Positions 22,053 to 25,055 of a stretch of DNA of 34,362 nucleotides are shown here, piece by piece. The DNA lies in contig WLMQ01000004.1 in NCBI GenBank assembly GCA_009700145.1, positions 1-34,362 of the forward strand, given 5' to 3'. The first letter of the stretch is position 1. Every line of letters begins with the position of its first letter. The notes beneath the pieces are model-generated. The model was not told where the DNA came from and searched no databases. It worked only from the letters and a program-made list of their open reading frames with translations. Both the position numbers and the translations under genes were made by a program. This DNA is from Actinomycetota bacterium. Its GTDB lineage: Bacteria; Actinomycetota; Acidimicrobiia; Acidimicrobiales; Ilumatobacteraceae.

Positions 22053-22712
22053 TCAGCATGAAAAATTGCTGGGAAGAAGATTTGCGTAATCGTCGCACGC
22101 AACCGTTGCACCTGGTGTCGATAAGTCTCCGCGACCACGTGGCACCGACTGTGGTTCATTGTTGCTCGTGAAGCGAACCTGACCGACACCCGATTGTCGA
22201 GTCAAAGTTAAGACGATCTGAGCGACGGCTAGTCGTTGCTCACCACCTGGAAGATCGGTGATGAAGGTTCCAGGAAGCACAACTGTTGCGATTCCACGTT
22301 CAACAGTCACTTCTGCTGCGAATCCGACCGGTAACGCACTTCGTAACCCGGCTGCGGCGTCGCCTTCTGGTGGACCTTCGGACAGAGCAGCTAGTACCTG
22401 AGGAGCCGCCGCTGGACTCAGTAGTAGTCGATCAATTGGTACTACTTGGGTGCCTGCCACAAAAAACATGCTCACTATTTCGACTGGGATTGTTGATGAA
22501 CTCGTTGATGTGGTCGTTTCAATCACCGGTGATGTTGTGGTGCTGGCGGGCACTGTTGTCGGAGGTGAACTTGTCGTCGTGGCATTGAGCTCGTAGGGGA
22601 TTTTGTCGGTGTCAATTTGTTTGACGGATCCGTCACCAGGCAGTGAGCAACTTGACACGACTATCCCCAACGCGATGAAGATTCCTGCGACATTCAGCAG
22701 AGTTCGTTTCAT
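22053..22712 (-). CDS. GerMN domain-containing lipoprotein
   Basis: Lipobox-like VVSSC, Thr/Ser-rich linker, GerMN-like LSEGPPEGDAAAGLRSALPVG...VAQIVLTLTRQSGVGQVRF; ATGA overlap with the upstream kinase gene. Confidence 0.82.
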   Translation of the reverse strand: MKRTLLNVAGIFIALGIVVSSCSLPGDGSVKQIDTDKIPYELNATTTSSPPTTVPASTTTSPVIETTTSTSSSTIPVEIVSMFFVAGTQVVPIDRLLLSPAAAPQVLAALSEGPPEGDAAAGLRSALPVGFAAEVTVERGIATVVLPGTFITDLPGGEQRLAVAQIVLTLTRQSGVGQVRFTSNNEPQSVPRGRGDLSTPGATVACDDYANLLPSNFSC

Positions 22713-24094
22713 GACTTCTCCCCGGGGAATTCAATGACGAAACGGGCGCCACCTGAATTGGCATCTTCAACCCATGCCGATCCACCGTGAGCTCGCGCGT
22801 GCTCGGCGACTAATGCCAATCCGAGTCCAGTGCCACCAGCACGACTACGACCTGCAGAACCACGGGCGAAACGTTCAAAAATGCGTACCCGCTCGCTTTG
22901 CGCGACTCCTGGGCCCGAATCTTCAACTGACACTCTGGTGCTCCCATCGCGTTGATTTTCAATTTCAACCAACGAAACTCCGCCTCCGTGTATTCGCGCA
23001 TTTTCTAAGAGGTTGGCCATAATTCTTTCAAAGCGGCGTTTGTCTATTTTGATAAAACTGTCGGAACCTTGGCTCACAATGATTCGAATGTCGTCAACGC
23101 CATAACGCGATGCAATCCGCCGGATAAACGGGACGATGTCAATTTCTTCTTGATTGATATCAGAAATTCCAGCGTCAAGTCGGGAAAGTTCTAGGAGGTC
23201 AAGAACCATTTGATCAAAACGTCGAATTTGGGAGACAACGACGTCGAGGGCTTGTTGAGTACGGTCGGACAAATCTGCGCGGCGCGCATCTAAAACTTCT
23301 ACCGCTGCGGCGAGCGCAGTAATGGGCGATCTCAATTCATGGCTGACATCGGAAGCAAAGCGCACTTCGCGTTCAATGCGAGTTTGTACCGCGTCAGCCA
23401 TGTCATTGAATGACGAAACAAGGCGCGACAGATCGGGGTCATTTTCTTGTTCAAGGCGTGTATCGAGTCCGCCTTCGGCGATTTCACTTGCGGCTTCGCT
23501 GACTCGCTCTAAGGGTCGCATGAGACGGCGACTGACCCAAAGGCCAACTAGTGACGACAGCGAACCAACCACCAAGATTCCGAGTAAGAGTGTTGAACCA
23601 ATGATGGTCAATGTTCGTTCTTCGTCGGTTAACGGAAAAGCCTCGAAATACTGAGCGTTGATTTCGTTTATCGAGACACCGACAGCGATAAACGGTTCGC
23701 CGTCGATTGAGAAACGCTGGCGTGAAGTAATTCCCTGCAGCGTCGAGGCGACCAATTCTGCTGGCAACAGAATCTGAGTGTGGAGAATGTCTTGGGAAAA
23801 GTAGAGGTCTTCTGGTGACACGTGCAAGATCGCGAATCCGTTCGACTCGGTGCGAACCCCAGAAATTAATTCAAAGGCTTCAGTGCGTCGAGTTCGCAAT
23901 TGTGTACGGATCAACTGAGCATTATTGAAGGCCTGACGTTCAACGATCTCTTCACGGCGTTGAAGTAGGTAGGTCCGTGCCGTGAGATAACTCGCTCCTG
24001 AAAGCAGTAAAGCAGCGACAAGACCGGTCATCAAGAACAACAGAGTCACGCGGCTACGCAAACTCAGGTGACGGGCTCGGTCGGCTAAACGCAC
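22709..24094 (-). CDS. Sensor histidine kinase (HAMP-HisKA-HATPase)
   Basis: FASDVSHELRSPITALAAAVEVL (H-box), NLLENARIHG, VEDSGPGV, GGTGLGLALV; GTG start. Confidence 0.94.
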   Translation of the reverse strand: MRLADRARHLSLRSRVTLLFLMTGLVAALLLSGASYLTARTYLLQRREEIVERQAFNNAQLIRTQLRTRRTEAFELISGVRTESNGFAILHVSPEDLYFSQDILHTQILLPAELVASTLQGITSRQRFSIDGEPFIAVGVSINEINAQYFEAFPLTDEERTLTIIGSTLLLGILVVGSLSSLVGLWVSRRLMRPLERVSEAASEIAEGGLDTRLEQENDPDLSRLVSSFNDMADAVQTRIEREVRFASDVSHELRSPITALAAAVEVLDARRADLSDRTQQALDVVVSQIRRFDQMVLDLLELSRLDAGISDINQEEIDIVPFIRRIASRYGVDDIRIIVSQGSDSFIKIDKRRFERIMANLLENARIHGGGVSLVEIENQRDGSTRVSVEDSGPGVAQSERVRIFERFARGSAGRSRAGGTGLGLALVAEHARAHGGSAWVEDANSGGARFVIEFPGEKS

Positions 24095-24159
24095 CTATGT
24101 ATCTTGCCCGATTGGCGAGCCGATATGTGGGGCGAGATTTGACATGACCGTCAGTCGAT

Positions 24160-24300
24160 GAAATAGAAAACGCCCGACTCGGACAATGTGCCAGCGAGTC
24201 GGGCGAAGAGTGGGTTCCGCTGGCCGGGGGAGATCAGGGGGAGGACGACCTCCACCGAACCAGCGTGAACAGTGGTCAGTTTCTCGGGCGTATGTGAAGG
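24160..24300 (-). ncRNA. Candidate structured small RNA or 5' leader upstream of the histidine kinase gene
   Basis: Outer stem GTTCACGCTGG/CCAGCGGAAC (24270-24260 with 24223-24214), inner hairpin GGAGG-TCGT-CCTCC (24253-24240), two CCCCC runs, then a terminator hairpin with T-rich tail; 5' end is a guess. Confidence 0.35.
24161..24205 (-). terminator. Intrinsic terminator reading on the minus strand
   Basis: Perfect 11-bp stem CGCCCGACTCG (24171-24181) / CGAGTCGGGCG (24195-24205), 13-nt loop, followed on the minus strand by TTTTCTATTT. Confidence 0.72.
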
Positions 24301-24362
24301 GACCGTGTGAATAGTGTGCGTTTTGTGTAACAAAGTGGAAATCTGAGCAAGAATATTGCCTA

Positions 24363-25055
24363 GTGAATTCTCTGCTGTTTATCGAAGATGACGATCAGAT
24401 CCGTCTGGCCCTACGCCTTGTTCTCGAGGACGAGGGTTACGAGGTTCGAGAAGCCGCCGATGGGCGGTCGGGATTGGCCGCTTTTCATGCTCTTGAGCCC
24501 GATCTTGTTTTGCTGGATATACGCCTCCCGGACATGTCGGGCTTTGATGTATGTCGCGCCCTGCGGGCGATGTCAATTGTGCCCATTGTGATGGTCACAG
24601 CTCAAACTGACACGCAAGACATGGTGACCGGGCTAGAAGCGGGTGCTGATGACTACGTCACTAAGCCAGTGGTACCGAAAGAACTTGCGGCGCGGGTGCG
24701 GGCTCATTTACGGCGGGCTCAACTACAAAATTTTTCACCGGGCGAGTCTCAGAGTGAGATTCTGGGTGACATCGATTTGCGTCGTGAGCAAGGTTTAGTT
24801 TTCAAAAACGGTCAAGAAATTTCATTGACAAAAACCGAGTTCAATTTGTTATGCGAATTTGCTGATCATCCCAATGTCGTTCTGTCGCGAGATCAATTGC
24901 TTGAACGGGTGTGGGGCTACGACTATTTGGGCGATAGCCGGCTGGTGGATGCCCACGTTCGACGCTTGCGAGTTAAAATTGAGGAACAGCCCGATGATCC
25001 GAAATTGATACTGACAGTTCGTGGCATTGGCTACCGGCTCATGCCGATTAGTTAG
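24363..25055 (+). CDS. Response regulator transcription factor, OmpR family, MtrA-like
   Basis: LFIEDDDQIR, DLVLLDIRLPDMSGFDV, GLEAGADDYVTKPVVPKELAARVRAHLRR, QLLERVWGYDYLGDSRLVDAHVRRLRVKIE...LTVRGIGYRL; GTG start. Confidence 0.94.
   Translation: MNSLLFIEDDDQIRLALRLVLEDEGYEVREAADGRSGLAAFHALEPDLVLLDIRLPDMSGFDVCRALRAMSIVPIVMVTAQTDTQDMVTGLEAGADDYVTKPVVPKELAARVRAHLRRAQLQNFSPGESQSEILGDIDLRREQGLVFKNGQEISLTKTEFNLLCEFADHPNVVLSRDQLLERVWGYDYLGDSRLVDAHVRRLRVKIEEQPDDPKLILTVRGIGYRLMPIS

Follow-up and report, generated by a model that had tools for sequence, protein, structure and literature searches.

A predicted small RNA gene was located on the minus strand at 24161..24270 of the window, the whole 34,362-nt stretch of DNA that was analysed, in the intergenic region between a minus-strand sensor kinase gene and a divergent plus-strand response regulator gene. 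The C-rich loop of this RNA is complementary to the ribosome-binding sites of nutrient-capturing lipoprotein genes throughout the family Ilumatobacteraceae, and the most likely role of the RNA is to reduce nutrient uptake once the neighbouring envelope sensor is active. That the element is a conserved structured RNA is nearly certain, and it is very probably the gene of a free trans-acting RNA that acts on the ribosome sites of lipoprotein mRNAs.

The source is a 2.06-Mb draft genome most closely related to Ilumatobacteraceae (Acidimicrobiales) of the freshwater acIV group. Several of the public records closest to the window bear the title 'Bifidobacterium breve'; the Ilumatobacteraceae metagenome genomes of L032, L033, L036, L076, and L079 carry this title and are evidently mislabelled, and L089 is titled Acidobacteria. 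The kinase (22709..24094, minus strand) contains HAMP, HisKA, and HATPase_c domains. A lipoprotein with a Germane (GerMN-like) domain (22053..22712, minus strand; PF10646, E = 1.5e-13) is encoded 3' of it in an LpqB-like position, and the response regulator, which is of the OmpR family, occupies 24363..25055 on the plus strand. MtrB and MtrA were the best-scoring NCBIfam models for the kinase and the regulator, but both proteins fell below the equivalog cut-offs (234.5 bits vs 450 and 262.1 bits vs 300, respectively) and were therefore regarded as MtrB-like and MtrA-like paralogues. An ordinary same-strand kinase/regulator pair with a more distant regulator is present elsewhere in the same genome (G000:C1), which identifies the pair in the window as a divergent paralogue. 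The best-scoring models and the Germane-domain lipoprotein 3' of the kinase are features shared with MtrAB-LpqB, whereas scores below the family cut-offs and a divergent arrangement that forms no operon set the window genes apart from that system.

A preliminary description of this DNA had placed a structured RNA at 24160-24300, and the element as now delimited stays within that range and extends to 24270. Its 5' end at about 24270 and its 3' end in the T-run at 24170-24161 were predicted from a -10-like hexamer upstream and from the terminator, respectively. Folding of the 141-nt stretch gave -57.7 kcal/mol (z = -4.8), and none of 200 shuffles folded as well. The outer stem GTTCACGCTGG/CCAGCGGAAC with its two C-runs and the perfect 11-bp terminator stem CGCCCGACTCG/CGAGTCGGGCG followed by TTTTCTATTT, both described previously, were recovered in place on the minus strand. 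Hairpin 1 (24214..24270, minus strand), defined by folding and covariation, comprises the outer stem GUUCACGCUGG/CCAGCGGAAC and an inner stem, and the intrinsic terminator, defined by sequence and folding, occupies 24161..24205 on the same strand. The inner hairpin GGAGG-TCGT-CCTCC that had been proposed was rejected on energy and conservation, since it reaches only -7.9 kcal/mol against -17.0 kcal/mol for the best and conserved fold of the same segment, in which GGAGGUC pairs with GAUCUCC and GUCCUCCCCCU is left open. The core stem of the hairpin thus formed is a rigid inner stem of 13 bp, and the middle nine bases of its apical loop GUCCUCCCCCU (24236..24246, minus strand) have a probability of being unpaired above 0.9 in the predicted fold. 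Within the loop, which reads UCCUCCCCCU, the segment CUCCCCCU (24243-24236) is nearly invariant and, from the alignments and the target sites, is the predicted seed for Shine-Dalgarno sites of the sequence AGGGGGAG.

Searches with covariance models detected the RNA in 149 of 201 Ilumatobacteraceae genomes (96 with model R1 and another 53 with model R2), nearly always as one copy. Desertimonas flava (L064), a cultured species, is among the carriers. The R1 match in the window, the core of the RNA family, lies at 24223..24259 on the minus strand (E = 1.5e-8) and is the single copy in its genome. No convincing match was found in the rest of the class Acidimicrobiia, where R1 gave two weak matches only; L148 was ruled out as lying inside a coding sequence, and L147 has a similarly weak score. 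The response regulator adjoins the RNA in all 66 fetched loci, and the divergent kinase is also present in 64 of the fetched stretches. Every family relative examined with a readable intergenic region had both the gene pair and the hairpin, down to kinase identities of about 49%. Two main forms of the RNA occur, one with the loop NUCCUCCCCCU on a 13-bp stem and the other with the loop AUGCUCCCCCUU and usually one bulge. A divergent kinase/regulator pair, its regulator 65% identical, also occurs in the sister family genome G040 (L185, G040:C14), but the 159 bp between the two genes contain no such hairpin; the arrangement of the genes may therefore be older than the RNA.

When long 72-nt segments were aligned with MAFFT, indels spoiled the consensus fold, and loop-anchored segments were used instead. 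In the resulting alignment of 27 distinct sequences, 93.7% of cells were paired, compared with 71.3% in shuffles and 36-53% for slid structures; changes on both sides had occurred in 11 of the 13 inner pairs, and covariation was 0.68 vs 0.28. Read on the minus strand, the stem had 47 G-U wobbles vs 5 A-C mismatches, which identifies this strand as the RNA strand. Because the hairpin recurs between these two genes throughout the family, with many compensatory substitutions, chance can be ruled out. Conservation and covariation across orthologous intergenic regions, chosen beforehand as the test on which the element was to stand or fall, were both clearly present. The predicted RNA family is absent from Rfam, specific to Ilumatobacteraceae, and previously undescribed; a literature search found no sRNA paper for Acidimicrobiia.

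Two options had been left by the preliminary description, a free small RNA of 130-140 nt and an attenuating 5' leader of the kinase operon, and the comparison of lineages supports the first, with a shorter predicted length of about 105-110 nt from the -10 at 24283-24278 to the T-run at 24161. The putative -10 of the RNA (GAAACT, 24278..24283, minus strand) is 7 nt upstream of 24270, a conserved position, and every lineage has a -10-like hexamer (GAAACT, CATCAT, or CAGTAT) 7 nt 5' of the hairpin, which places the hairpin at the predicted start of the transcript. The kinase has a putative -10 of its own, CAAGAT (24101..24106, minus strand), 6 nt before its GTG; it is conserved in the genus and gives way elsewhere to AACACT/CACACT/AATGCT with the same spacing. 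Across all lineages a -10-like hexamer (CAAGAT/CAGGAT, AACACT/CACACT, or AATGCT) is present 6-8 nt upstream of the kinase start, as in leaderless mRNA. All of these putative -10 elements were assigned by visual inspection of sequence alignments. In L026, L059, L060, and L061 a STAS-like ORF, named by eye, with a GGAG/GGAGG ribosome site is located between the RNA and the kinase; this ribosome site could pair in cis with the RNA's own loop. The separate hexamers of the RNA and of the kinase, together with the intervening ORF in a few lineages, favour a free RNA.

A 5' leader of the kinase-lipoprotein operon, acting as an attenuator or in a riboswitch-like manner with read-through of the terminator under some condition, would fit the location of the element on the kinase strand, the terminator upstream of the kinase, and the STAS-like ORF with its ribosome site directly 3' of the hairpin in the L026 and L059-L061 lineages. 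It was nonetheless judged quite unlikely and was set aside, on sequence evidence only, chiefly because of the hexamer conserved before the kinase start in every lineage; moreover, the conserved part of the element is a C-rich loop with no ligand pocket or switching helices, and complementary sites that track the presence of the RNA are found in unlinked genes. No alternative pairing of hairpin 1 with the terminator proved to be conserved among the relatives, which also speaks against a leader; the candidate pairing of CCAGCG (hairpin 1) with CGCTGG (terminator) was dropped when it proved not to be kept in L007 or L020. The terminator stem is conserved within the genus of the window, with a T-run that is good in low-GC species and decays in GC-rich ones; no terminator or 3' end was recognisable in the aligned loci of other genera.

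A predicted response-regulator box, GTTACA-n5-CGCACA, forms a 17-bp direct repeat at 24315..24331 (minus strand) that is common to both divergent promoters, and a predicted further half-site, TTCACA (24293..24298, minus strand; GTCACA in many relatives), is located upstream of the -10 of the RNA. The box, with small changes, and a GTCACA-like half-site upstream of the RNA are kept in all lineages. Their layout is like that of published MtrA sites, which are GTnAC-n5-GTnAC in Streptomyces (PMC13189361) and the repeat GTCACAgcg in mycobacteria (PMC2945938), and this resemblance makes control by the neighbouring regulator likely. Judged from the motifs, the RNA is probably activated by the adjacent response regulator.

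Candidate target sites were sought as AGGGGGAG, the exact complement of the invariant loop, located 3-11 nt before ATG or GTG in 15 genomes. Overall counts were close to those of a reversed control, so most matches are due to chance, and some sites are upstream of unrelated genes. Among 13 selected loci with a real long ORF (one of them incomplete at a contig end), 8 encode substrate-binding lipoproteins, as recognised by lipobox and sequence. In 800 kb of the congener G019, the octamer is at the Shine-Dalgarno position of only 3 of 654 genes (3 of 644 in a second count), which were named by eye, with no family search, as a Liv-type lipoprotein, a branched-chain-type permease, and a sulfatase-like gene. 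A ranking of all start regions of this 800-kb sample by duplex energy was suggestive but noisy, the genome having 65% GC.

Of 41 orthologues of the Liv-type lipoprotein in RNA-bearing genomes, 40 have AGGGGGAG at the Shine-Dalgarno position; the remaining one (L305) has GGGGGAGG, a shifted match that still forms 8 bp with CCUCCCCC. None of 26 homologues from RNA-less genomes (23 from other families of the order and 3 from genus g49) has the octamer there, nor do any of four distant lipoprotein paralogues (40-46% identity) in RNA-bearing genomes. The three readable orthologues of g49 have AAGGGGAAT and GCGGGGAG instead, and four near-complete genomes of this genus lack the divergent regulator, retain only a 44-49% identical paralogue, and gave no RNA match. 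Near-complete genomes without a divergent MtrAB-like pair, in which the more distant regulator is kept, are G071, G088, G102, and G113 of g49 and G025 and G075 of g3; those included in the RNA searches had no match. The association of octamer and RNA gave a Fisher p of about 1e-17, a descriptive value that ignores shared ancestry, and the loss of the octamer with the RNA concerns one genus (g49) and outgroup families, that is, few independent events. Among Liv-type orthologues the octamer stays fixed while its flanks differ and the start codon follows at anything from about 5 to 14 nt, which argues that the octamer itself is conserved. In these comparisons AGGGGGAG is kept as the Shine-Dalgarno sequence of ABC-transporter substrate-binding lipoproteins, above all the Liv-type, only in RNA-bearing genomes, and complementarity to the ribosome sites of unlinked mRNAs, as expected of an sRNA, is conserved and tracks the presence of the RNA.

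The predicted duplex between the RNA and the target in its own genome has an energy of -16.9 kcal/mol. In the window species the Shine-Dalgarno sequence is partly paired in the predicted fold of the isolated mRNA leader of the target. In most Liv-type leaders (L225, L226, L228, L230, L285, L287, and L380-L390) a small GC-rich hairpin, GGGGCacccGCCCC or a variant of it, precedes AGGGGGAG by about 10-25 nt, and in many a CUCC just 5' of the octamer might pair back onto GGAG. Neither the loop nor the target site varies enough for a test of compensatory change, both being nearly invariant. Loop variants were seen only in L060, L061, and L077 (CUCCCCCA and CUCCCCUU), in whose genomes no Liv-type orthologue was identified. 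The BMP-type lipoproteins form a second family, unrelated to the Liv-type. Of 29 genomes examined for it, 16 have an uninterrupted complementary run of 8 or more bases and 22 one of 7 or more; the corresponding background among G019 genes is 5-6 of 644 (0.8-0.9%) and 2.6-3.4%.

There is a slender chance that the hairpin is instead bound, as DNA or as RNA, by a protein such as the response regulator, and that the match to AGGGGGAG reflects a habit of G-rich ribosome sites among strongly expressed lipoproteins. Palindromic hairpins can serve as operators, and GGAG, which is part of the ribosome site, is contained in the octamer. Sequence is conserved, however, in the loop and not in the stem, which varies by compensation with G-U pairs, a mark of RNA. 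In g49, which lacks the RNA, and outside the family, the homologous lipoproteins use other ribosome sites, and the octamer is rare at ribosome sites generally, as the G019 count indicates.

The earlier remark that the C-runs recall actinobacterial 6C RNAs did point to the presumed working part, the C-rich loop, but there is virtually no chance that the element is a divergent 6C RNA (RF01066): although it is actinobacterial, with a C-rich loop and a terminator, and 6C-type RNAs such as mycobacterial 6C/B11 use their C-rich loops to bind G-tracts at ribosome sites (PMC12395582), the region matched neither 6C RNA nor any other Rfam family at the gathering threshold or at E up to 5, only one loop is C-rich (C5, CUCCCCCU) and the terminator loop is not, where B11 has C6 and C9 loops and two loops of six or more C are expected, the seed is in the 5' hairpin and not in the terminator loop, and the gene neighbourhood differs, as do the known B11 targets, which are lipooligosaccharide genes. 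A 6C search of 100 genomes of the class found none; the Corynebacterium control was only weakly detected, so this search alone is not strong.

A closer functional likeness is to AbcR1 and AbcR2 of alphaproteobacteria, whose 5' hairpin loop carries UCCUCCC, and of which AbcR1 represses livK, probably by covering the ribosome site (PMC3712013, PMC8844928). Here too a loop in the 5' hairpin, CCUCCCCCU in the first hairpin of the predicted RNA, exposes an anti-Shine-Dalgarno seed (CUCCUCCC), and the ribosome sites of mRNAs for substrate-binding proteins, livK among them in the case of AbcR, are complementary to the RNA; in the present case this complementarity, as read from sequence alone, is conserved with the presence of the RNA. 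The two differ in that sequence and phylum are unrelated and that the present RNA has a rigid 13-bp inner stem with a CUCCCCCU loop and is a single copy inside a two-component locus, with no tandem sibling and no second seed. No Rfam match to AbcR was obtained, and the RNA is restricted to Ilumatobacteraceae. The best reading is that it would work like AbcR yet is no AbcR, being homologous to neither AbcR nor 6C/B11 in the tests made.

In enterobacteria the Hfq-dependent sRNA GcvB represses ABC-transporter genes for amino acids and peptides and binds close to their ribosome sites; oppA is reportedly one of its targets. The predicted action on ABC-transporter genes near ribosome sites is shared with GcvB, while sequence and structure are unrelated and the regulator is different.

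In the mechanism proposed for the free RNA, the MtrA-like paralogue next door would activate its transcription through the GTTACA/GTCACA boxes, and in the window species the terminator would end the RNA before the kinase, which would be transcribed from its own promoter. The rigid, conserved 5' hairpin presents the nearly invariant CUCCCCCU loop, which would pair over 8-10 bp with the Shine-Dalgarno sites of lipoprotein mRNAs and block ribosome binding, so that synthesis of abundant lipoproteins and nutrient uptake would fall in response to an envelope or osmotic signal sensed by the kinase.

Acidimicrobiia rank among the common bacteria of fresh water and subsist on uptake through ABC transporters. 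Genome sequences reveal the RNA together with its probable regulator and target sites, and one genus in which it has been lost naturally serves as a control. The locus offers a cheaply testable case of convergent evolution, in which the seed type of AbcR1 (an anti-Shine-Dalgarno loop) and its target class (Liv-type binding proteins) recur with an unrelated RNA, and it suggests a role for the MtrAB-like paralogue of Ilumatobacteraceae. On balance, the system appears to be a convergent counterpart of AbcR and GcvB that arose independently in Actinobacteria, and the first sRNA of Acidimicrobiia as far as searched: an envelope-sensing MtrAB-type paralogue with its own RNA effector would repress abundant substrate-binding lipoproteins through one fixed octamer as a family-wide regulon, and loss of the locus in one genus would have released the octamer from its targets.
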